From an uncultured Anaeromyxobacter sp. (GTDB taxonomy: Bacteria; Myxococcota; Myxococcia; Myxococcales; Anaeromyxobacteraceae), in the NCBI GenBank assembly GCA_903855945.1, contig CAIOAK010000041.1, forward strand, positions 1 through 63,239: a stretch of DNA of 63,239 bases, in the 5' to 3' direction. Position 1 is the first letter of the stretch. Each line of letters starts with the position of its first letter. A program made the translations under genes and the position numbers. Positions 20,610 through 57,244 of this stretch are shown piece by piece. A model generated the notes under the pieces. That model was not told where the DNA came from and did no database searches. It saw only the letters and a list, made by a program, of their open reading frames with translations.

Positions 20610-22441
<1,832 letters not shown>

Positions 22442-45030: not shown

Positions 45031-45984
45031 GTGAACCCCTCTCCAGCGCAGCGCATCTTCGCGGCCTGCGCGCCCGGGCTCGAACCGGCGCTCGCGCGCG
45101 AGCTCGTCGCGCTGGGGCTCTCCGCCCGGCCCGTCCCGGGTGGCGCGGAGGCATCCGGACCGGACGCCTGCGCCGTCGCCTGCCTGGGCTCCCGCGCCGC
45201 CGACGCCGTGAAGGCACGCCTGTGGGAAGGGGCTGCATCGGAGCTCCCCGCGGCGCGGCGCGATCTCGGGCGCCGGATGCCGGGCGTCGAGATCGAGGTG
45301 CGGCGGGAGGGGACGACGGGCACGCTCTCGGCCGACGCCGTGGGCTCCGCCCTCTTCCGTCGGGGCTGGCGGGCTCGCGTGGGGGCGGCCCCTCTCCGGG
45401 AGAGTCTCGCCGCGGGTCTCCTGCTCGAGCTGGGCTTCGACGGCACCGTCCCGTTCCTCGACCCGATGTGCGGCTCGGGGACCATCGCCATCGAGGCGGT
45501 GCTGCTCGCCGGGCGGCGCGCCCCCGGACTGGGGCGGAGCTTCGCCTTCGAGGGCTGGCCCGGCCACGCTCCCGCGCGCACCGCGGCGGTCCGGGAGCGG
45601 CTCTCCGCGCTCGCCCGTCCCCCTCCGTCGCCGGTGCTCGCCTCCGACAAGAACGGCGGAGCGATCCGTCTCTGCGGCAAGAACGCGACCGCGGCGGGCG
45701 TGGACGCCGACGTCCGGATCGAGCGTCTCGATGCGTCGGACGTCCTGCCGCCGGCGGTCCCGGGCGTCTGCCTCGTCAACCCGCCATACGGGATCCGGCT
45801 CGACCGCGACGTGGAGGAATCGTGGCGAGCGCTCGCGGCGCTCCTGCCCAGGCTTCAGGGCTGGACCGTCGGAATCCTCGCCGGCGGCCCCGGCCTCGAG
45901 CGACTCGTCCCGCTGAAGCCGGTCCGGTCGCTGGCGATCCAGAACGGCGGCGTGCGCTGCCGATTTCCGATCTACCTACCGTGA
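45031..45984 (+). CDS. RlmL/TrmN-type RNA guanine-N2 methyltransferase, shortened THUMP
   Basis: A 317-residue class I methyltransferase. The APLRESLAAGLL segment, SAM motif FLDPMCGSGTIAIEAVLLAG and catalytic NPPYG are those of the RlmL (23S rRNA m2G2445) and TrmN/Trm14 group. The N-terminal THUMP and ferredoxin-like parts are only about 120 residues instead of about 180, so RNA recognition may differ. It starts at GTG. Its last 9 bp overlap the convergent amidotransferase-transglutaminase gene. Confidence 0.82.
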   Translation: MNPSPAQRIFAACAPGLEPALARELVALGLSARPVPGGAEASGPDACAVACLGSRAADAVKARLWEGAASELPAARRDLGRRMPGVEIEVRREGTTGTLSADAVGSALFRRGWRARVGAAPLRESLAAGLLLELGFDGTVPFLDPMCGSGTIAIEAVLLAGRRAPGLGRSFAFEGWPGHAPARTAAVRERLSALARPPPSPVLASDKNGGAIRLCGKNATAAGVDADVRIERLDASDVLPPAVPGVCLVNPPYGIRLDRDVEESWRALAALLPRLQGWTVGILAGGPGLERLVPLKPVRSLAIQNGGVRCRFPIYLP

Positions 45985-47742
45985 AACAACCGTGATTCCT
46001 GCTGAAGCCTCGCCCAGGGACTCGACACGGACCTCGACGTCCAGCTTCTCCCCTCCCCCGCCGACGTAGATCGTCCCGGAGGTGGGTGTCGCGTCCCGGT
46101 AGCTGCGACCGACGGCGACCCGGATGTGCTCGGTCTGGGTGAGGATCCCGTTCGTCGGGTCGAAGCCCTTCCAGCCCACCTCGGGCAGGAAGACCTGGGC
46201 CCAGGCGTGGGAGGCCTCCGCCTGGCGCTGGTTCGGGTTCTTCTCCCCGGTCCACAGGTAGCCGCAGATGTAGCGGGCCGGCAGGCCGAGCAGGCGGGCC
46301 AGGCAGATGAAGAGGGTCGTGAAGTCCTGGCAGACGCCGCGCCGGTTCGCGTAGACCTCGAACGGCGTGGTGAAGACCGTGGTCGAACCCTGCGTGTACC
46401 TGTACTCCTGGAAGATCGACTGGTTGAGGTCGAGGAGCGTGTCGAGCAGGTCGAAGTCGTTCCGCACCGCGAAGCTCATGGCGTACTCGGAGAGCTCGCG
46501 CAGCTCCGACTCGGCCAGCTCGGGCGGCAGCAGGAAGGGCTGCAACACTTGCTGGTGCCAGGGCATCCAGGTGACCGGGATCTGGACCCGCTGGTGCAGC
46601 GGCCGGTAGGCGAGCGGATCGACATCCAGCACATCCACGACGGAGGTGGCCGTGATGGCCATGTCCTCGTAGGGGATGTCGACCTCCATGCGGCGAGCCC
46701 GGTTTCCGAAGACGTCCTCGTAGTCCCGGTGGGTCCCGTCCACCGACACCCGGAGCTCGTGGGAGAGGAGGCGCTGCAGGCGATCCTCGGCCGGGAAGAG
46801 CCGGAAGAGGTGGCTGCTCCGCTCGACCGCCTTCTCGTATCGGTAGGCGGTGCGGTGCACGATCCGGTAGCGCCGGGGCTCGGACCGCGTCGGGCGCGGC
46901 ATCTGTCGGCGCTGCAGGCCGGGGAGCGGGGGGGAGGCCGACGGGGACGCTGCGGGGACGAGCTCGTCCCGCACGGCCCCCTGCCGCAGCAGGACCAGGT
47001 GGCCGGGCGGCACGGCCCGCCATTCCTGCTCCTCCCCGTTCACCGAGAGGGGATGGGAGCTCACCACGACGCCCTTGCGGCTCTTCACGCCCCGCCGCCC
47101 GAGATCGACCCCGAGCTCGGTGTCTCCGAGCACGAGCTTCTCGTAGGGGGGCATCACCTCCCAGAGCCAGATGCCCGCCGACTCCCGGTCGGAGTAGACC
47201 GCCACGTCGTGACCGTCGGTGAGGACGCAGGTGAGGTTCCCGCTCTCGTTCAGCTGCGCCAGCCACTCGAGCAACGTTCGCGGGTCGGCCTCGCCCAGGC
47301 TCTTCCAGCCCTTCTCGGCGAAGCGGTTCATCAGCTCGCAGAAGATGAGCTCGGTGTCGGTGCTCCCCACCGGCTCGAAGGGGGCTCCGGGGCGCAGCTC
47401 GAGCCTGTGGCGCAGCGAGCCGGCGTGGCCGAAGAGCCAGTCTCGACGCCCCCAGGCCCGCAGGAAGGGCTGGGTGTTGGCGTCGGAGACGGCGCCCCAT
47501 GTGGCGCGCCGGACGTGGAGCAGGAAGGTGGAGGACTCGAGGTGCTCCCAGGCCTTCACGAGCTCGGAGCGGATGGAACCGCTCGGCGGGGCCGGCTCCT
47601 TGAGCACGGCCGCGGAGGGTTCGCCGCCCGGGTAGTAGCCGATGCCCCAGCCGTCGGGCGGTACCTGCCCCTGGGACAGGCAGCGGAGATCGAAGGAGGG
47701 CGCGAGCTCGCCCTCGAAGGACATCGCGAGGAGGTTGGGCAT
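45976..47742 (-). CDS. Inactive-looking class II glutamine amidotransferase domain fused to a transglutaminase
   Basis: A 588-residue fusion. Residues 1 to about 255 align with YafJ-type class II amidotransferases (DGWGIGYY at 30-37, LHVRRAT at 75-81, FGHAGSL at 104-110). However, the nucleophilic Cys2 is proline (MPNLLAMS) and the oxyanion HNG reads HAG. Residues about 290-588 form a transglutaminase-like cysteine protease with a Bact_transglu_N region (YRIVHRTAYRYEKAVERSSH) and an intact triad: Cys471 in GVCQDF, His512 in SHAWAQVF and Asp528 in GFDPTNG. No signal peptide. It is the last gene of the five-gene cluster, 15 bp after the alpha-E gene. Confidence 0.88.
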   Translation of the reverse strand: MPNLLAMSFEGELAPSFDLRCLSQGQVPPDGWGIGYYPGGEPSAAVLKEPAPPSGSIRSELVKAWEHLESSTFLLHVRRATWGAVSDANTQPFLRAWGRRDWLFGHAGSLRHRLELRPGAPFEPVGSTDTELIFCELMNRFAEKGWKSLGEADPRTLLEWLAQLNESGNLTCVLTDGHDVAVYSDRESAGIWLWEVMPPYEKLVLGDTELGVDLGRRGVKSRKGVVVSSHPLSVNGEEQEWRAVPPGHLVLLRQGAVRDELVPAASPSASPPLPGLQRRQMPRPTRSEPRRYRIVHRTAYRYEKAVERSSHLFRLFPAEDRLQRLLSHELRVSVDGTHRDYEDVFGNRARRMEVDIPYEDMAITATSVVDVLDVDPLAYRPLHQRVQIPVTWMPWHQQVLQPFLLPPELAESELRELSEYAMSFAVRNDFDLLDTLLDLNQSIFQEYRYTQGSTTVFTTPFEVYANRRGVCQDFTTLFICLARLLGLPARYICGYLWTGEKNPNQRQAEASHAWAQVFLPEVGWKGFDPTNGILTQTEHIRVAVGRSYRDATPTSGTIYVGGGGEKLDVEVRVESLGEASAGITVVSR

Positions 47743-47757: not shown

Positions 47758-48735
47758 TCACTGGGCCGACATCTCGGCCGTGGGACCCGGAGCATACCCC
47801 AGGAGCTCGCTGCCGATGACACCTGCGATGGCGGCACTCTCGTCCACCACGTGGGTGAGGATCCCGTGGAGGGCCGACAGGGCGAAGTCCCGGTCGAGCG
47901 CCGCCACCCAGTCGGCGAGCGCACGAAGCCTCACGGCGCTCCGCGCCCCCGGCAGGTCCGGCTGATCGGGCGGACGCAGCCGCTCGAAGCGGGAGACGGC
48001 CGCCCGCAGGGAGAAGCGCACCGACCTCGGGAACATGGGGTCCACCACCAGGAAGCGGGCCACGGCGGCCGGGGTCACCCGCCCGCGGTGCACCTTCATG
48101 AAGGGCTCGAAGCCGGAGCAGGCGCGGAGCAGCGCGAGCCAGAGAGCGGTCTCGATGACCTCGTGGGAGCCGAGCGCCTGGAAGGCGTGGTGGTGCACGT
48201 CGAGGATGCGGGAGGTCTGACCGGCTCGCTCCAGCATGTTGCCGAGGAGCATGAAGTGCATGGCGTCGTCGAAGAGCATGGTTCCCCGCACGATGCCCTG
48301 CAGCGACTGCATGGAGGTTCGGATGCGCCGGTAGAAGGCGTGCCGGTCCTCCCGCCACTCGGTGCGGGCGCGGGGGCTGCCCATCCAGAGGTAGAGGGCG
48401 TTCAGGGCCTCCCAGGTCTCGAGGCTCACCACCTCCCGGATGGAGCGGGCGTTGTCGCGCGCCCCGGAGAGGGATCGGGCGATGGAGGTGGGGTTTTCGG
48501 CGTCCCAGGTCATGTACTCCTGGACCCGCTCGCCGTCGTCGGTGCGCCCCTGGCCGCTCTCGGCGTACCGCTCCTGCTCTCCCGACACGATGATCACGGG
48601 GAGCCACACGTGGCGGGGGTTCAGCCCCACGTCCAGCGCCAGGTTGCGGGTCACGCCCAGCACGCGGGCGGTCGATTCGGCCCGCTCCAGGTAGCGACCC
48701 AGCCAGAAGCAGTGGTCGGCGACGCGGGAGATCAT
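47758..48735 (-). CDS. Alpha-E domain protein (DUF403)
   Basis: A 325-residue, almost entirely helical protein. It opens MISRVADHCFWLGRYLERAESTARVL, the hallmark of the alpha-E family, and shows DAMHFMLLGNMLERAGQTSRILDVHHHA in the middle. The repeated Glu-Arg pairs give the family its name. Alpha-E proteins almost always accompany a circularly permuted ATP-grasp, sometimes fused to it. Its ATG overlaps the ATP-grasp stop codon in ATGA. The molecular role is not established. Confidence 0.92.
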   Translation of the reverse strand: MISRVADHCFWLGRYLERAESTARVLGVTRNLALDVGLNPRHVWLPVIIVSGEQERYAESGQGRTDDGERVQEYMTWDAENPTSIARSLSGARDNARSIREVVSLETWEALNALYLWMGSPRARTEWREDRHAFYRRIRTSMQSLQGIVRGTMLFDDAMHFMLLGNMLERAGQTSRILDVHHHAFQALGSHEVIETALWLALLRACSGFEPFMKVHRGRVTPAAVARFLVVDPMFPRSVRFSLRAAVSRFERLRPPDQPDLPGARSAVRLRALADWVAALDRDFALSALHGILTHVVDESAAIAGVIGSELLGYAPGPTAEMSAQ

Positions 48736-50201
48736 GTGGCCTCCGGCTTCTGCACCCAGGTGTCCTTCGAACCGCCGCCCTGGCTGGAGTTGACCACGTA
48801 GGAGCCCTCGGTGAGCGCCACGCGGGTGAGGCCGCCGGGGAGCACCCAGGGTCCGGCGCGCCCGTTCAGGATGTAGGGGCGCAGGTCCACGCGCCGCGGC
48901 TCCACCCGCCCCTTCGCGCTCACCCAGGTCGGGGCGGTGGAGAGCTCGAGGCGCCGCTGGGCGATGTACTTGCGGGGCTCGGCCTCGACCCGCTTCCGGA
49001 ACTCGGCGATCTGGGCCTTGGTGGCCTGCGGTCCCATGAGCATCCCGTAGCCGCCCGCCTCGTCCACCGCCTTCACCACGAGCTCGCCCAGGTGGTCGAG
49101 GACGAAGCGCCGGTCGTCCTCCCGGGCGCACACCCAGGTGTCGAGCTGGGCGAGCAGCGGTTCCTCCGAGAGGTAGTGACGGACGATGTCGGGGACGAAG
49201 GGGTAGACCGCCTTGTCGTCGGCCACGCCGTTGCCGGGCGCATTCGCGAGCGCCACGTTTCCCTTGGCCCAGGCGCGGAGGATCCCCGGAACGCCGAGCA
49301 GGCTGTCGGGGCGGAACACCTCCGGATCGAGGTAGGTCTCGTCGATGCGCCGGTAGATGACGTGCACCGGGCGCGGGCCGCGGGTGGTGCGGCAGTAGAC
49401 TTTATCACTCTTAGTGAATAAGTCGGCGGCCTGCACCAGCTCGAGCCCCATGGTGCGGGCGAGGAAGCTGTGCTCGAAGTAGGCGGAGTTGTAGGGGCCG
49501 GGCGTGAGCACCACTGCGGTGGTCTCGTCGGGGTCCACCGGGGAGACCGAGCGCAGCGACTCGGCGAGCCGGGTGGGATAGGTGTCGACCGGCTCCACCC
49601 GCGCGGCGTCCAGGACGTCGGGGATGACCCGCTTGGAGATGATCCGGTTCTCGAGCAGGTAGGAGACGCCCGAGGGGGTGCGCAGGTTGTCCTCCAGCAC
49701 CCGCCAGGTCCCCGCCGGGTCCCGGACCAGGTCGATCCCCGCGATGTGGATGCGCACGTCGCCGGGCGGCCGGACCCCCCGCAGCTGCGGGTACCAGGAC
49801 TTGGAGGCGAGAACCAGGTCGGACGGCACCACACCCTCTCGGAGGATGCGCTGGTCGCCGTACATGTCCGCGAGGAAGAGCTCGAGCGCCCGGACCCGCT
49901 GCACGAGCCCACGCTCCAGCGCCGCCCAGTCGGGTGCGGAGATGATCCGGGGCACGAGGCAGAACGGGAAGATCTTCTCGGTGCCCTGGTCGTCCGAGTA
50001 GACCGAGAAGGTGACGCCCTGGTTGAGGAGCGCGCGCTCGGCCAGCCCCTGGCACACGGCGAACCCGGCGCGGTTCTGCGCGCCGAGCGCCTCGGCGGCG
50101 CGGCGGAAGGGAGCGCGCGGCGTCCCGTCCTCCGCGAAGAGCTCGTCCCAGGTACCGGGGAGCCCGGCGTAGTCGGAGAGCAGGCGGCTCGTGGGATCCA
50201 T
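48732..50201 (-). CDS. Circularly permuted ATP-grasp ligase-like protein
   Basis: A 489-residue cytoplasmic protein of the CP_ATPgrasp (COG2308) family. Conserved segments include NQGVTFSVYSDDQGTEKIFPFCLVPRII, HIAGIDLVRDPAGTWRVLEDNLRTPSGVSYLLENR, the VYRRID-type segment (VHVIYRRIDETYLDPEVF), GNVALANAPGNGVADDKAVYPFVP and YGMLMGPQATKAQ. ATP-grasp enzymes join a carboxylate to an amine through an acyl phosphate. It lies 16 bp after the DUF2126 gene. Codons about 261-267 (Leu-Phe-Thr-Lys-Ser-Asp-Lys) are a cluster of rare AT-rich codons including TTA. Confidence 0.92.
   Translation of the reverse strand: MDPTSRLLSDYAGLPGTWDELFAEDGTPRAPFRRAAEALGAQNRAGFAVCQGLAERALLNQGVTFSVYSDDQGTEKIFPFCLVPRIISAPDWAALERGLVQRVRALELFLADMYGDQRILREGVVPSDLVLASKSWYPQLRGVRPPGDVRIHIAGIDLVRDPAGTWRVLEDNLRTPSGVSYLLENRIISKRVIPDVLDAARVEPVDTYPTRLAESLRSVSPVDPDETTAVVLTPGPYNSAYFEHSFLARTMGLELVQAADLFTKSDKVYCRTTRGPRPVHVIYRRIDETYLDPEVFRPDSLLGVPGILRAWAKGNVALANAPGNGVADDKAVYPFVPDIVRHYLSEEPLLAQLDTWVCAREDDRRFVLDHLGELVVKAVDEAGGYGMLMGPQATKAQIAEFRKRVEAEPRKYIAQRRLELSTAPTWVSAKGRVEPRRVDLRPYILNGRAGPWVLPGGLTRVALTEGSYVVNSSQGGGSKDTWVQKPEAT
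49402..49421. repeat. Intragenic AT-rich palindrome, site 3
   Basis: TTATCACT-CTT-AGTGAATAA is a near-perfect palindrome within the ATP-grasp gene, with one bulged A. It forces the codons TTA, ACT, AGT, GAT and AAA in an otherwise very GC-rich gene, and it shares the TCACT-N3-AGTGA core with the other sites. Confidence 0.65.
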
Positions 50202-50217: not shown

Positions 50218-51837
50218 TCAGGTGGGGAGCGCCGCTGGCAACCGGCGCAGGTCGAGGGTGAGGCGCGCCGAGGGGACGCGCAGGGGGGTCCGGGGGCGAC
50301 CCGGGCGGATCACCACCCGTTCCCGGCAACGTCGCTCGGCCTCCGCGCCGTCGGCGGGGAGACCGTCGTACGAGCCCCCTCCCGGCTTCCAGCCGTGGAG
50401 CTCGATGCGCACCGCCTCCCCCCGCCGCTCCCACTCCAGCACGAGCGGATCGTGGGGGCCGAGCCCGGGGTGGAGTCCCGGGCGCGGGGCGAAGGCGCGG
50501 TACCGGACCGCACCCACGTGGAGCGGGCCGCCGGCCGCGTCGAGCCCCACCTCCACTCCCTGTGCGGACAGGCTTCCCGGGGGCGTCCCCGGGGAGTTCA
50601 CGAGCAGTTCCAGCCGATCGGAGCTGGCGTCGACGAGCCGGGCCGTCGATCCCTCCTGGGACGCCACGTCCCCGAGGAGCGGCCAGAACTCGGGGGCCCG
50701 CCGGACCGTGAGGACGGCCCCGGAGAGCTCCACCCGCGCCACCTCCGGCGCCTCCGGAGCGAGCCAGGACTGGAGCCTCCGGCCGGGCGCGAGGCCGTGC
50801 TCGGCGAGGTCCCGGATCACGTCGGCCAGATCGCCGGCGAGGGAGACCGGCAGGGATGCGCGGTCGTGAAGCTCGGGACCCCAGTCGAGGAGGGGCTCCT
50901 CGAAGGGGGCGCGCGCCAGCCGGGCCGCGACGGCGCGGAAGAGCGCGCCGAGGGCCAGCAGCCGCTCCGGCGCATGGGGCATGCGCAGCGCCCGGAGCTC
51001 GACCACCCCCATGCGACCGCGCCCGGGGAGGTGGGGATTCCAGAGCTTCTCGACGTTCACCTCGGCCCGGTGGGCGTTGCCCGATGCATCGACGAGCAGC
51101 GGCGCGAGCGCGTTCCAGAGATCCTCCGGGCCCGACGCCTCCCGCATCGCCAGCCGGTCGAGCGCCACCGCCAGCTCGTCGAAGCGCTCCCGCACCCCCT
51201 CGTCCGGCCGCGGCCCCTGGCCGGCGCTGCCGACGCACTCGGGCGCGAAGGCGTAGGAGAGGGACGGATGGTGGTTCAGGTAGCGGACGAGCGAGGGAAG
51301 GAGCCGGGGACGGACGAAGAACGGGCTCCGTTCCGGCGTGGGACCGCCGAGCGTCAGCTGCCCTCCGCCCCCCGAGTCGCCGGCGTTGCCGTTCCAGCGG
51401 AATCGCTCCGGGGAGAGCCCCACCGCCGCGGCAGCCGCGTAGACCGCGCCGGCATGCTCCGCGAAGGTGACGAGGTCGGGGGCCGGTGCGAGGTTCACCT
51501 CGATCACGCCCGGGTCGGGCGCGATCGTGAGCCGGCGCTCGGATCCGCCGCCGCGCGGCAGGTAGGCGGCACCCATGCAGAAGCGGGGCTTCTCCTCGCC
51601 CGGGTAGAGCCGCCCTTCCGGTTGCTCCCTCCGGAAGGAGGCGGAGAGCCGACCGACGAGTTCCCCGAGGAGCGCCGCCGCCCGCTCCTCCTTGTCCCCA
51701 CCCTCGGCCATCCACAGCCAGTGCGGGTCCTGGGAGGAACGGTCGGTGAAGGTGGGCTCCGCGCCGAGCCAGATCTCGAGGCCGGCCCCCCGGAGGGCGT
51801 CGTCCTGCGCGCGGCACTCGGCGAGGAGTTCCTGCAC
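50218..51837 (-). CDS. Stand-alone DUF2126 putative amidoligase
   Basis: A 539-residue protein homologous to the C-terminal two-thirds of the next gene upstream but without a transglutaminase domain. Shared segments include AEPTFTDRSS, LTLGGPTPERSPFFVRP, the LNHHPSLSYAF helix, VDASGNAHRAEVNVEKL and VVELRALRMPHAPER. The glycine loop that reads GGGNHITLGG in the fused protein reads GGGGQLTLGG here, so a conserved Asn-His is lost. DUF2126 is annotated as a putative amidoligase. The GTG start shares one base with the upstream TAG stop and has GGAGG 4 nt before it. Confidence 0.88.
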   Translation of the reverse strand: MQELLAECRAQDDALRGAGLEIWLGAEPTFTDRSSQDPHWLWMAEGGDKEERAAALLGELVGRLSASFRREQPEGRLYPGEEKPRFCMGAAYLPRGGGSERRLTIAPDPGVIEVNLAPAPDLVTFAEHAGAVYAAAAAVGLSPERFRWNGNAGDSGGGGQLTLGGPTPERSPFFVRPRLLPSLVRYLNHHPSLSYAFAPECVGSAGQGPRPDEGVRERFDELAVALDRLAMREASGPEDLWNALAPLLVDASGNAHRAEVNVEKLWNPHLPGRGRMGVVELRALRMPHAPERLLALGALFRAVAARLARAPFEEPLLDWGPELHDRASLPVSLAGDLADVIRDLAEHGLAPGRRLQSWLAPEAPEVARVELSGAVLTVRRAPEFWPLLGDVASQEGSTARLVDASSDRLELLVNSPGTPPGSLSAQGVEVGLDAAGGPLHVGAVRYRAFAPRPGLHPGLGPHDPLVLEWERRGEAVRIELHGWKPGGGSYDGLPADGAEAERRCRERVVIRPGRPRTPLRVPSARLTLDLRRLPAALPT

Positions 51838-54800
51838 TATTCCTCCGACCCGTCGTCCTCCTCCGGCGGGGGCATCGGCCGATCGAGGCCGTACCGGCGG
51901 AGGTCGAGCGTGTGGGGGTACTCGGGGTGGGGCTTCGCCGCGCGCGGGTGGGTAGACCTGGGCAGCGGTCCCTCCTCGGTGAAGCGGGCTGCGCGCCGCG
52001 CCGAGGCCTCGAAGCGCGTGAGCGGAGGGGCCTTGAAGCCGGTCCCCTCGGGGTGCCACACGTGGTACGCGCAGGCGCCCACCGAGCGCTTCGCCCAGCG
52101 GTCCCAGAGGTCGAACCGCAGCGGGTGGTGGATGCCCAGGTGCGGCTGGAGCGAGGACGGCGGCGCCCAGGCGCGGAAGCGGACGCCTCCCACCTGCTCG
52201 CCCGCCATGCCGGTGGGACGCAGCGGGACGGAGAGTCCGTTCACGAGCACCGCGAAGCGCTCCGGCTCCAACCCCTCCGCGCGCACCTCGACCCGTTCCA
52301 GGGACGAGTCGACGAAGCGGGCCGTTCCGCCCGATCCGGGCTCCTCGCCCAGCACCGGCCAGGGCTCGAGCGCGTTGCGGATCTCGATGGCCACGCCGCC
52401 GACCTGCAGCCGGCCCACCACCGGGCAGCGGAACTCGATGAAGGGCCGGTAGGCCTCCGGCGGCAGCCCCACCCCGCGCGCGGCCAGGAAGGCGAGCACA
52501 TCCTCCATGTCCCGCCACAGCCAGAAGGGGAGCAGGAAGCGGTCGTGCAGTTCCGTACCCCAGCGGACGAGGGGGTGGGCGTAGGGCTCCCGCGCGAAGG
52601 CGGCCACGAGCGCACGGGCCAGGATGGCCTGCGCCGCCGCCATGCGGGGATGGGGCGGCATCTCGAAGGCCCGCAGTTCCACGAGACCCTGCCGCCCGTG
52701 CGCGGTCCGCCAGTCGAAGAGCTTGTCTATCGAGAGCTCGGCGCGGTGGCCGTTGCCGGTGACGTCGACGAGCAGGTGGCGGAGCAGCAGGTCCCCGAGC
52801 CACGGCGGCGTGGGCTGCCCGCGATCGGAGAGGCGGAGGAGGGCGATCTCCAGCTCGTAGAGTCCGTCGTGGCGCGCCTCGTCGACGCGCGGGGCCTGCG
52901 AGGTGGGTCCGACGAAGAGGCCGGTGAAGAGGTAGCTCATCGACGGGTGGTGCTGGAGGAAGGTGACGAGGCTCGCGATCAGGTCCGGCCGGACCACGAA
53001 CGGACTCTGGAGCGGCGTGGGGCCACCCAGGGTGATGTGGTTGCCGCCGCCGGATCCCTCCTGCCGCCCGTCGAGCATGTACTTCTCGGCATGGAGGCCG
53101 GCGTGGAGAGCCGCGTCGAATACCTGCTCCACCTGGCTGGCGCAGTCGCGCCCGGTCCCGGTGGGCTGGACGTTCACCTCCAGCACGCCCGGATCGGGGG
53201 TGACGGAGAAGCGGATCACCTCGGGACCCCAGGGCGGCGGGTAGCCCTCCAGCTGGGCGTCGAGGTCCAGCTCGCGGGCCGCCGCATCGACGGAGCGGAC
53301 GAGCTCCATGAAGTGGGCGGCGCTCTCGAGCGGAGGCAGGAAGACGAAGAGCTCTCCCTGGCGCGGCTCGACGCAGAGTGCGGTCCGGACCGTCGGCAGG
53401 CGCGGGGCGGCAGCGACCCGCCGGGCCTCCTGCTGGGCTCCGACCGCCTTGGCCCGGGCCTTCTCCTCCCGCCGGCGCGCCTCCGCCAGCTCCTCGGTCC
53501 GGGGGTCGGGCACCCAGGAGGGTTCGGGCGCCGCCGGCGCCGGGAGCGGTCCTCCCAGGGCGCGGAGCGGAAGCCGAAGGCCGGCGGGCGCATCGCCCGG
53601 AACGAGGAAGAGCTTCTCGCGCCGGAAGCTCCAGGCGTCGGTGCGCCAGCCCCCCTCCCCGCGCGACAGGGGCAGCGCCCAGGCGGACGGCGTGGCGAGT
53701 CCGTGATCGAGGACCCGGGCCAGCCGACGCCGCTCCTCCCCATCGGAGAGGTCGGCCTTCATGGGGTCCACTCCGGGTGGAAGCTCGGCCTCGTCCCGGA
53801 CGTACTTCCAGGGGTCCTCGAAGGCCGGCATCGGCGCCGAGGTGCGGACGCCGAGCCGTCCGGCGATGGCCCGGACCAGCGCCTCCGCGGCCTCGGGGGT
53901 GGCGGCTCGACGCGCGCCACCGCCGGTCCAGAGGCGGCTGCCGTCCCGGAGCCCGACCACGTCGAGCGCCCAGCGCGGCAGGCTCTCCCCCGGATACCAC
54001 TTGCCCTCGCGCCGCAGCAGGACCCCGCCCGGGGCCATGCGGTCCCGCAGCTCGCCGGCGAGCACCAGCCCCTGCTCCCACTTGGTGGGGCCGAGCGCCT
54101 CGCCCCGCCACTCCGGGGCCTCGGGATGCAGCCGGGAGTTGAAGGTGGGCTCGCCACCGACCGTGAGAGTGAGCCCCTCGGCGGCGAGCACCGCATCGGC
54201 CTCGTCGGAGGCGTGGAGCAGCGCCTGCCAGGTCTCCTCCGGGTAGGGGGTGGTGGGGCGAGCCTCGTGCCCCAGCCGTCCCACCTTCATCTCGAAGGAG
54301 AAGCCGCTCGCGCCCACGTCGGACGTCCCGATGACCGGCGCGGCCATGGCGGGGCGCGCCACGCAGGCGAGCGGGATGTGCCCTTCCCCGCAGAGCAGGC
54401 CGCTCGTCGCGTCGAGGCCGATCCAGCCGGCGCCGGGGAGGAACACCTCCGCCCAGGCGTGCAGGTCCACCACGTCCCGTCCCACGCCGCGCGGCTCGTC
54501 GGGGATCATCCCCTCGTCGGTGAGCTGGATGAGGTAGCCGGAGACGAAGCGTGCGGCGATGCCCCGGGAGCGGAGCGCGGCCACGAGCAGCACCGCCGAG
54601 TCGCGGCAGCTCCCCCTGCCCTGTCGCAGCGTCTCCTCCGGAGTCCAGACGCCCGGCTCCTCCCGGATCACGTAGCGGGTCCGCTCGGCCACGAGCCGGT
54701 TCAGCTCGACGACGAGCGGGATGGTGCGACCGGAGGCCGGCAGCTCCGAGAGGAACTTCTCGAGCTCCGGACCGCCCTCCAGCGACGGATCGCTCCGCTC

Positions 54801-55151
54801 GAGGAACGGCGCCAGTTCGGGACCCAGCTCCTCCGGATAGGCGAACGGGACCTCCTCGCAGCGATCGTCGACGAAGAAATCGAACGGGTTCACCGGCCGC
54901 ACGTCGACGGCCATCTCCACCTGGACCGCCAGCTCGGAGAAGCTCGAGCCCTTCGGGAAGGTGACGTGGGCGACGTGGTTCCCGGTCGGGTCCCTCTGCC
55001 AGCGCACCTCGGCGGGCTCGCTCACCCGGAGGGAGTAGGTCTCGATCCGGGCCCGGGCGTGGTTGGCCGGACGCAGCCGGATCTGATGAGGACCGAGCGC
55101 TGCGGGCCGGGGGAACCGGTAGACGGTGTCGTGCTGGAGGAGGAGGCGCAT
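51837..55151 (-). CDS. Transglutaminase-DUF2126 fusion protein
   Basis: A 1104-residue protein, first gene of the cluster. Residues 1 to about 105 are the Bact_transglu_N beta domain (MRLLLQHDTVYRFPRPAALG onward). Residues about 145-260 are the transglutaminase core with Cys182 (GSCRDSA), His231 (DLHAWAEVF) and Asp247 (GLDATSG). From about 325 to the end is DUF2126, with GGEPTFNSRL, GGGNHITLGGPTPLQSPF, FLQHHPSMSYLFTG, VDVTGNGHRAELSIDKLFDW and LRAFEMPPHPRM. A Lys/Arg/Ala-rich linker splits it near residue 560. No signal peptide. The ATG at 55151 follows TAATGT by 8 nt without a Shine-Dalgarno sequence. Confidence 0.9.
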   Translation of the reverse strand: MRLLLQHDTVYRFPRPAALGPHQIRLRPANHARARIETYSLRVSEPAEVRWQRDPTGNHVAHVTFPKGSSFSELAVQVEMAVDVRPVNPFDFFVDDRCEEVPFAYPEELGPELAPFLERSDPSLEGGPELEKFLSELPASGRTIPLVVELNRLVAERTRYVIREEPGVWTPEETLRQGRGSCRDSAVLLVAALRSRGIAARFVSGYLIQLTDEGMIPDEPRGVGRDVVDLHAWAEVFLPGAGWIGLDATSGLLCGEGHIPLACVARPAMAAPVIGTSDVGASGFSFEMKVGRLGHEARPTTPYPEETWQALLHASDEADAVLAAEGLTLTVGGEPTFNSRLHPEAPEWRGEALGPTKWEQGLVLAGELRDRMAPGGVLLRREGKWYPGESLPRWALDVVGLRDGSRLWTGGGARRAATPEAAEALVRAIAGRLGVRTSAPMPAFEDPWKYVRDEAELPPGVDPMKADLSDGEERRRLARVLDHGLATPSAWALPLSRGEGGWRTDAWSFRREKLFLVPGDAPAGLRLPLRALGGPLPAPAAPEPSWVPDPRTEELAEARRREEKARAKAVGAQQEARRVAAAPRLPTVRTALCVEPRQGELFVFLPPLESAAHFMELVRSVDAAARELDLDAQLEGYPPPWGPEVIRFSVTPDPGVLEVNVQPTGTGRDCASQVEQVFDAALHAGLHAEKYMLDGRQEGSGGGNHITLGGPTPLQSPFVVRPDLIASLVTFLQHHPSMSYLFTGLFVGPTSQAPRVDEARHDGLYELEIALLRLSDRGQPTPPWLGDLLLRHLLVDVTGNGHRAELSIDKLFDWRTAHGRQGLVELRAFEMPPHPRMAAAQAILARALVAAFAREPYAHPLVRWGTELHDRFLLPFWLWRDMEDVLAFLAARGVGLPPEAYRPFIEFRCPVVGRLQVGGVAIEIRNALEPWPVLGEEPGSGGTARFVDSSLERVEVRAEGLEPERFAVLVNGLSVPLRPTGMAGEQVGGVRFRAWAPPSSLQPHLGIHHPLRFDLWDRWAKRSVGACAYHVWHPEGTGFKAPPLTRFEASARRAARFTEEGPLPRSTHPRAAKPHPEYPHTLDLRRYGLDRPMPPPEEDDGSEE

Positions 55152-55372
55152 GGGGGGCGACATTACAGTCGTTGCAAGAGCCCTGCCTGTTTCCGGCCGC
55201 GATGTGCTCACGATCCCTGCCTCGAATGGCGTCCATGCGCCTGCCCAGCGAGCAGCAGGTGCCCGGTTACCGGTCACGAGCAGGGCTCCCGATCGGGGGG
55301 TTCCCCGAATCGTCACGATTCGCCCATCCGGGGTGTGCTGAAGTAGGCTTTCCTCCAGGGAGCGGCCTCTTC
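55152..55372. promoter_or_regulatory. Divergent control region, amidoligase cluster versus ppk1
   Basis: This 221-bp region holds the start of the five-gene cluster and of ppk1. On the minus strand TAATGT (55160-55165) ends 8 nt before the cluster's first ATG. On plus, TAGGCT (55344-55349) lies 23 nt before the proposed ppk1 start. No operator palindrome was identified. Confidence 0.4.
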
Positions 55373-57244
55373 TTGAAAATCCAGCAGGAACTCTCATGGT
55401 TGCGCTTCAACCGGCGGGTCCTCGCCCAGACCCGCCGGCCCGACTTCCCGCTCGCCGAGCGGATGCGCTTCCTCTCCATCTGGTCCACCAACCTGGACGA
55501 GTTCTTCGCCGCCCGGATCTCCCGCCCCTTCCTGGAGGAACGAGGGACCCCGAACTACCAGCGGCTCCTCTCCGAGGCCCGCGAGCAGGTCGAGGCCGCG
55601 AGCGGCGCCTACCGGGTGCTCCTGGACGAGATGGAGGCCCACGCCGTTCGCGTCGTGCCCGTCTCCTCCCTCACCCGGGAGGAGCTCGACTACTTCGGCG
55701 CCTTCCTGGCCGAGGAGGTGGCGCCGCGGATCGACGTGCTGCGTGCCGAGGCCGTCCGGGAAGTCCGCACGGGCGCCCTCTACTTCGCCACCGGCCACGG
55801 CGTGCTCGAGCACCTGGTGCGCCTGCCCGACAGCCTCCCCCGGCTCATCGAGATCCCGGGGCGCGACGGGACCTACGTCCGGCTCGGCGAGCTCCTGCGG
55901 CTGCGCAGCGACCTCTTCCTGGAGGGGCGCGACCTGGAGCTCCACGAGCTGCGCGCGATCCGGCTCGCCGCCATCGACCAGCTCGGACTCGACTGGGAGG
56001 ACCTCCCGGCTGCGCTCGAGACCCGGCTCGACGGGCGCATCAGCCACCTGGAGGTGGAGAAGAACTTCCCGCCCCACTGGTCCGAGTCGATCCGCATCGC
56101 GCTCGGACTGGAAGCCGAGGAGGTGTTCCGCGTGGAGCCCCCGCTCGACCTGCGCATGGTCTCCACGCTCGTGAAGCGAGCCCCGGCGCGGTTCAAGTTC
56201 GGCGCGCTTCACCCGTGGATCGTCCCGGGATTCGCCGTCGACCCATTCCCTCGGATCGCCCGGCGCGACCAGCTGATCTTCCACCCGTACCAGGGGTACG
56301 AGGCGGTGGAGGATTTCGCCCGTGCCGCCGCGCGCGACCCGGAGGTCACGGCGATGCGTGCCACCCTGTACCGGGTGGGCGACGACAACGTGCTCGCCGA
56401 GTCGCTCATCGAGGCGGCGCGCGCCGGCAAGGAGGTTGCGGTGCTCCTCGAGGCCCGCGCCCGCTTCGACGAGCTGCAAAATCTCGAGTGGGGTCTGCGC
56501 TTCCAGAACTCGGGCGTGCGGGTCCTTCCGCTCCCCTCCCGGAAGGTCCACGCCAAGGCGGTGTGGGTGCGGCGCGGGAGGCAGGAGTTCGTCCACCTGG
56601 GGACCGGCAATTACAACACCGTGAACGCCCGCCTCTACACCGACCTCTCCCTCTTCACCGCCGACGCGGGGATCACACGCGACGTGAAGCGCTTCTTCGA
56701 CGCGCTGGAGGCAGGACGGCTCCCGCGGATGACGGAACTGCGCACCGGCTCGGCCATCCGGAAGCTGCTCGTGGACCGGATCCGGGCCGAGTCGAACCCC
56801 CGCGGGCACCTGATCCTCAAGTTCAACCACGTCACCGACCGTGCGGTCCTGGACGCGATTCGCCGGGCCGCGAAGGCTGGCGCGCGCGTCGACCTCGTGG
56901 CCCGCACCACGCTCACCGAGATCGCGCCCGGGGTCCACGCGAAGAGCCTGGTGGGACGGTTCCTCGAGCACGCGCGGGTCGCCGCCTTCCGCAACGGGGG
57001 ACGGTGGCTCGTGTACGCCGGCAGCCTCGACGCGATGCCGCGCAACTTCGACCGGCGCTTCGAGATCTTCTTCCCGGTGAAGGACCCGGCGTCGCGCCGG
57101 ATGGTGCTCGCCGAGCTCCGGTCGCAGGTCGCCGACGACGTGAACGCCTTCGACCTTCTTCCGGACGGGGGCGAGGAAGCGCGCTGGGGGGGCGCCCAGA
57201 ACGCGCAGCGCCCCGACGACCATCGGCGGCACCGGAACGGGTGA
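55373..57244 (+). CDS. ppk1: Polyphosphate kinase 1, short divergent form
   Basis: Polymerises the gamma-phosphate of ATP into polyphosphate. 623 residues from a TTG start. The N-terminal QQELSWLRFNRRVL and MRFLSIWSTNLDEFF segments, the HPYQGYEAVEDF head region, the phospholipase-D-like VHAK motif with His393 (the autophosphorylated position) and GRFLEHARV with the second histidine (His533) are all present. The usual cysteine-containing loop before the second histidine is replaced by RTTLTEIAPGVHAKS. The start is uncertain: GGGAG lies about 10 nt upstream of TTG, and in-frame ATGs lie further upstream. Confidence 0.9.
   Translation: MKIQQELSWLRFNRRVLAQTRRPDFPLAERMRFLSIWSTNLDEFFAARISRPFLEERGTPNYQRLLSEAREQVEAASGAYRVLLDEMEAHAVRVVPVSSLTREELDYFGAFLAEEVAPRIDVLRAEAVREVRTGALYFATGHGVLEHLVRLPDSLPRLIEIPGRDGTYVRLGELLRLRSDLFLEGRDLELHELRAIRLAAIDQLGLDWEDLPAALETRLDGRISHLEVEKNFPPHWSESIRIALGLEAEEVFRVEPPLDLRMVSTLVKRAPARFKFGALHPWIVPGFAVDPFPRIARRDQLIFHPYQGYEAVEDFARAAARDPEVTAMRATLYRVGDDNVLAESLIEAARAGKEVAVLLEARARFDELQNLEWGLRFQNSGVRVLPLPSRKVHAKAVWVRRGRQEFVHLGTGNYNTVNARLYTDLSLFTADAGITRDVKRFFDALEAGRLPRMTELRTGSAIRKLLVDRIRAESNPRGHLILKFNHVTDRAVLDAIRRAAKAGARVDLVARTTLTEIAPGVHAKSLVGRFLEHARVAAFRNGGRWLVYAGSLDAMPRNFDRRFEIFFPVKDPASRRMVLAELRSQVADDVNAFDLLPDGGEEARWGGAQNAQRPDDHRRHRNG

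Follow-up and report, generated by a model that had tools for sequence, protein, structure and literature searches.

Architecture of the fusion protein

The window, which is the whole stretch of 63,239 nucleotides analysed here, contains a gene that raises the question of what use a transglutaminase may have for an attached class II glutamine amidotransferase domain in which both the nucleophile and the oxyanion asparagine are replaced. The gene (45976..47742, complementary strand; 588 amino acids) joins a pseudo-GATase_4 domain to a transglutaminase. The amidotransferase-like domain of the Ntn fold covers residues 1-262 (46957..47742, complementary strand); an earlier account made from the letters alone (hereafter the sequence-only reading) had placed the domain correctly but cut it too short at 46975, as it reaches to about 46957. 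The protein starts with MPNLLAMSFEG and has DGWGI at residues 30-34, HVRRAT at 76-81 and FGHAGSL at approximately 104-110. The GATase_4 profile matches residues 1-260 (E=2e-69), and the Pfam model PF13230 gives 234 bits against a cut-off of 23. By profile and by predicted fold, the domain belongs to the GATase_4 family of class II amidotransferases, as had been recognised from the two motifs. It may be noted that the Pfam match alone leads to the annotation "amidotransferase", which is misleading for this protein: of the features that a working class II glutamine amidotransferase should have, the HNG motif and a Cys at the mature N-terminus are absent, and the Arg and Asp with presumed substrate contacts are present. 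The position of the nucleophile is occupied by Pro2 (47737..47739, complementary strand), the structural alignment of the model beginning with residue 2 opposite EgtC residue 2 and GlmS residue 1, and that of the oxyanion Asn by Ala107 (47422..47424, complementary strand), so that Cys2 has become Pro and HNG has become HAG just as had been read. GlmS of the same window (GTG start at 20610, forward strand; CGIVGYVG, HTRWATHG, VVHNG) keeps both Cys2 and HNG and holds as the internal control for which it had been proposed. The C-terminal part consists of a bacterial transglutaminase N-terminal region (Bact_transglu_N, residues 292-370; 46633..46869, complementary strand; PF08379, E=3e-20) and Transglut_core (residues 433-529; 46156..46446, complementary strand; PF01841, E=8e-18). 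Together with the triad Cys471, His512 and Asp528, which was rightly called intact and is kept in 98 of 98 fused relatives, these matches place it in the transglutaminase-like superfamily.

Catalytic positions in fused and unfused relatives

The genome scan gave 27 orthologous loci of the fused family, one of which is cut by a contig end. All 26 complete loci and the window have Pro2, and their residue 107 is Ala, Ser or Gly. A further search covered whole Myxococcota genomes and sampled the phyla to which three loci belong; after removal of contig-cut fragments, it yielded 131 distinct amidotransferase domains, of which 73 fall in fused clade A, that of the window protein, 25 fall in fused clade B and 33 are not fused. 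Only three clade-A proteins came from the sampling of the L008 and L030 phyla, and the nearest relatives of the window protein are from Anaeromyxobacteraceae, phylum Myxococcota. Cys2 is present in all 33 unfused proteins and in none of the 98 fused ones. Position 2 is Pro in 59 and Leu in 14 of the 73 clade-A proteins, and Ser, Thr, Ala or His in clade B, several members of which have no start codon there, making the site internal. Position 107 in clade A is Ser (56 cases), Ala (12 cases) or Gly (5 cases) and never Asn; Asn is present in 12 clade-B proteins and in all 33 unfused proteins, every one of which has HNG. The loss of Asn107 is thus complete in clade A and partial in clade B. The sequence-only reading had asked whether Pro2 and HAG are fixed among orthologues: the absence of Cys2 and Asn107 from clade A is invariable, but the replacing residues are not fixed. 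It had also named two findings that would speak against a lost nucleophile. The first, orthologues with Cys2, occurs only among the more distant unfused relatives. The second, a sequencing error or a wrong start, is ruled out, since independent assemblies (L004-L030) agree and none of the starts further upstream in the orthologues would bring back a Cys.

We infer from these replacements that the fused domain has no glutaminase activity, and the analogy with PurF of E. coli, in which a change of the N-terminal Cys to Ala or Ser abolishes the use of glutamine (PMC3261824), argues in the same direction. It is extremely improbable that the domain remains an active glutaminase whose nucleophile comes from another residue or from a partner and whose ammonia is fed to the ligases of the cluster. 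In favour of this, the fold and the substrate-type residues are retained, and Ser2 or Thr2 occurs together with HNG in part of clade B; against it, besides the PurF variants, stands the whole of clade A with only Pro or Leu at position 2 and only Ser, Ala or Gly at position 107.

Clade B shows further variation. Ser2 or Thr2 with an intact HNG is seen among L164, L165, L168, L174, L178 and L179, and such proteins might in principle act as Ntn hydrolases with a Ser or Thr nucleophile. They stand beside members whose extended N-terminus would have to be processed before it could offer a nucleophile. A long-branch subgroup (L187, L188, L189 and L191) has lost the His of HxG, Asp129 and mostly Arg78, so its pocket seems degenerate, and its transglutaminase triad is intact. 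Outside the fused family, an unfused deltaproteobacterial GATase_4 relative (L045:6001-6396) starts with MTRLFG and has AHMG in place of AHNG, apparently another loss or a Thr-nucleophile form. Three GATase_4-like proteins (L043, L044 and L048) have a signal-peptide-like leader with the conserved Cys-Arg just after it, which suggests that they are exported and that removal of the leader uncovers the nucleophile.

Fusion history and exchange at position 2

In the maximum-likelihood tree, clade A, clade B and the unfused proteins are each separate with support of 100/99 to 100/100, and the two fused clades together split from the unfused at 100/99. As the tree has no outgroup, the direction of change rests on the fact that working members of the wider family have Cys2. 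The simplest reading is a single fusion, with Cys2 lost at or after it. The Cys2 of the unfused proteins, the Ser/Thr2 of the sister clade and the Pro/Leu2 of the window's clade would form a natural series from an enzyme domain to a pseudoenzyme after fusion. In several relatives of the same order the fused protein has been duplicated, with one clade-A copy in each of two subgroups (L073/L108, L076/L107 and L080/L109).

The exchange at position 2 bears on the proposal of the sequence-only reading that removal of Met exposes an N-terminal proline able to act as an amine catalyst, and on the more general idea, which goes beyond that proposal, that the domain is a re-tooled catalyst using this proline or a clade-specific residue such as Cys21. 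Pro2 is the majority state of clade A, and near-fixed clade-specific residues lie by the motifs (Asp18 in 67, Cys21 in 71 and Trp82 in 73 of the 73). But the initiator Met is normally not removed before Leu2, and the 14 Leu2 orthologues have no nearby alternative start: their ATG comes about 15 bases after a stop codon that seems to belong to the upstream gene, and any other start in the same frame is at least 27 codons upstream. The Leu2 proteins nest within the Pro2 proteins, and the Pro2 protein L109 (MPHLL) nests in turn within the Leu2 group; therefore at least two changes between Pro and Leu have occurred at this position. Conservation at position 2 also does not exceed that of Asn3 (69 of 73) and Ala6 (72 of 73), which neighbour it on the strand, and the oxyanion Asn is gone throughout clade A. 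The proline catalyst is disfavoured by the Leu2 orthologues and by this exchange, and Cys21 was rejected as a new nucleophile because it is incompletely conserved, being replaced in at least one member (Phe in L105). Overall, we regard a re-tooled catalyst as very unlikely.

Purifying selection and retained residues

For close pairs, dN/dS is 0.12-0.24 in the amidotransferase domain, 0.16-0.33 in the transglutaminase and 0.37-0.69 in the weakly constrained inter-domain linker (46870..46956, complementary strand); for more distant pairs it is 0.4-0.54 in both domains. These are Nei-Gojobori estimates on high-GC genes, for which the comparison between domains outweighs the absolute values. The amidotransferase domain is functionally constrained, under purifying selection as strong as that on the transglutaminase, and the possibility of a decaying domain is ruled out by these values.

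Among the residues present in 73 of 73 clade-A proteins are D30, G31, W32, G33, R78, N89, P92, F93, H106, G108, D129 and E131. Arg78 (47509..47511, complementary strand) corresponds by motif to GlmS Arg73 (HTRWATHG) and Asp129 (47356..47358, complementary strand) to GlmS Asp123 (TDTE), which we take to be the residues that hold the α-carboxylate and α-amino groups of glutamine. In the alignment of clade A, the catalytic positions are gone and those of the binding type, a role assigned by homology, are retained. As catalytic residues are lost and binding residues kept, the domain most likely binds and does not cleave, but Arg78 and Asp129 could instead be retained for structural reasons. The pocket has nevertheless changed, since Thr81, the counterpart of the glutamine-contacting Thr76 of GlmS, is kept in only 47 of 73 clade-A proteins, and Arg196, fixed in the unfused relatives, is lost in clade A. 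Trp82 (47497..47499, complementary strand), which adjoins HxRxAT, is invariant in clade A only and is variable in the unfused proteins, is a candidate residue of a re-tooled pocket; like Cys21 and Asp18, it is typical of clade A and rare or absent in the unfused group, a pattern that points to an altered pocket or interface.

Such an interface would also be expected if the domain, with no small ligand to bind, were a pure scaffold whose surface serves the transglutaminase only in folding, oligomerisation or the docking of a partner. This reading would account for the loss of both nucleophile and oxyanion Asn, for the many clade-A-specific fixed residues outside the known motifs (P15, L19, P38, W65, P198 and G218), as expected for a new interface, and for the loss of Arg78 or Asp129 tolerated by several clade-B members. 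Arg78 and Asp129 are, on the other hand, invariant in clade A while positions 2 and 107 vary, which favours retained binding, and we consider a pure scaffold possible but rather unlikely.

Predicted structure and proposed function

AlphaFold modelled the domain with a pLDDT of 94.5 from 74 diverse alignment rows; this model supersedes a full-length prediction from 26 close rows, which had a pLDDT of 69 and a poor pocket. The best solved match is 1te5 (Z 32.2, rmsd 2.0, 244 residues aligned), followed by EgtC (4zfk, 4zfj and 4zfl, Z ~22) and by PurF and GlmS (Z ~21). Two of the matches were solved without the Cys and with a ligand, namely EgtC C2A (4zfl), which carries its natural substrate, and GlmS C1A (3ooj), which carries glutamate, so the fold keeps ligand binding when the same Cys is engineered away; no other precedent speaks as strongly, by analogy, for a binding module.

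Our preferred reading, which we hold to be fairly probable, is that the domain is a pseudo-amidotransferase that binds glutamine or γ-glutamyl groups uncleaved and either positions substrate for the transglutaminase or regulates it. In this scheme the domain descends from a YafJ-type class II glutamine amidotransferase that became fused to a transglutaminase; the aligned sequences show that the N-terminal nucleophile is lost family-wide and the oxyanion Asn in the window's clade. The domain keeps its fold and the residues that, by homology, hold the α-carboxylate and α-amino groups of glutamine, and most likely binds glutamine, glutamate or a γ-glutamyl or glutaminyl group of a peptide without cleavage. 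When bound, it could present the substrate to the attached transglutaminase or switch it, and the transglutaminase would probably act alongside the ATP-grasp and amidoligase enzymes of the cluster, making or breaking γ-glutamyl bonds. As a speculation, binding might make this pathway responsive to glutamine or nitrogen status. The sequence-only reading had also suggested a binding or regulatory module; the residue losses, purifying selection, retained Arg78 and Asp129 and the fold all fit this idea, of which the binding or regulation as such is what we infer.

Gene cluster and nitrogen context

The fusion gene is the last of a cluster on the same strand. The next gene upstream encodes an Alpha-E protein (47758..48735; PF04168, E=2e-77), Alpha-E being the domain formerly named DUF403, and is preceded by a circularly permuted ATP-grasp gene (48732..50201; PF14403/PF04174). 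DUF2126, a putative amidoligase, occurs twice in tandem (50218-55406, complementary strand): the cluster opens with a full transglutaminase-DUF2126 frame (51840..55406; PF08379, PF01841 and full-length PF09899), followed by a second, partial DUF2126 frame (50218..51867; PF09899 profile positions 387-799). Alpha-E, ATP-grasp or both are found near 49 of the 73 clade-A loci and Alpha-E near 19 of the 25 clade-B loci, which are minimum counts given that many flanks extend only 1.5 kb. No cluster genes were found near the 33 unfused loci, a count weakened by the same short flanks.

A link of the fusion cluster with nitrogen may be drawn by analogy only. A Burkholderia cenocepacia cluster that comprises DUF404/407, DUF403 and two transglutaminase-like genes depends on NtrC and sigma54 (PMC5491218), and in Pseudomonas putida nitrogen limitation leads to the induction of Anbu (PMC5666114). 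A sigma54 promoter scan of the window gave only two weak sites, each matching 10 of 12 positions and neither convincing, and a PF00227 search of the whole genome, which is 99% complete, gave no match, neither Anbu nor HslV. More tentatively, the domain may be a sensor of glutamine or γ-glutamyl groups, derived from a dead Ntn glutaminase, that controls the transglutaminase allosterically and ties a peptide-ligation cluster to nitrogen status, which we think possible but doubtful; if true, it would be a new kind of regulated transglutaminase. Clusters of Alpha-E, ATP-grasp, DUF2126 and transglutaminase are without confirmed function in the literature examined, and the putative ligand of the domain should reveal the chemical group that they handle. 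In that literature, whose scope did not extend to Iyer et al. 2009 on such clusters, we found no description of the transglutaminase fusion, of the split between fused and unfused proteins or of this cluster context.

Comparison with known systems

The closest solved relative, the YafJ-type GATase_4 protein of Pseudomonas aeruginosa (1te5), shares with the window protein the fold, the full-length profile match and the DGWG, HxR and TDSE motifs, but it has MCELLGMS and AHNG where the window protein has Pro2 and HAG, and the window protein is fused to a transglutaminase and sits in an Alpha-E cluster. The γ-glutamyl amidohydrolases EgtC and DUG3 have γ-glutamyl groups as ligands, and EgtC has the same fold; unlike the window domain, they are active enzymes with Cys2, and membership in EgtC was rejected as the TIGR03442 score of 52.8 bits is far below the cut-off of 218.65. 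Pseudo-amidotransferase domains as such are already known from β-lactam synthetase and crenarchaeal PurF′. The N-terminal domains of β-lactam synthetase and carbapenam synthetase are known to lack glutaminase function; they have the Ntn-amidotransferase fold (Z 9-11.6) but are kin of asparagine synthetase and distant in sequence from the window protein. In crenarchaeal PurF′, similarly, Ala or Val takes the place of the Cys in a class II amidotransferase domain, and the genome has an active paralogue (PMC3261824), but there the domain is of the PurF family and joined to a synthase domain, as opposed to GATase_4 and transglutaminase here. In gene content, the nearest system is the Anbu operon with Alpha-E, ATP-grasp and transglutaminase, where an Ntn-fold protein is likewise paired with a transglutaminase (PMC5666114, PMC6376114), whereas the genome examined here is without Anbu and the Ntn-fold part of its cluster is the dead amidotransferase domain.
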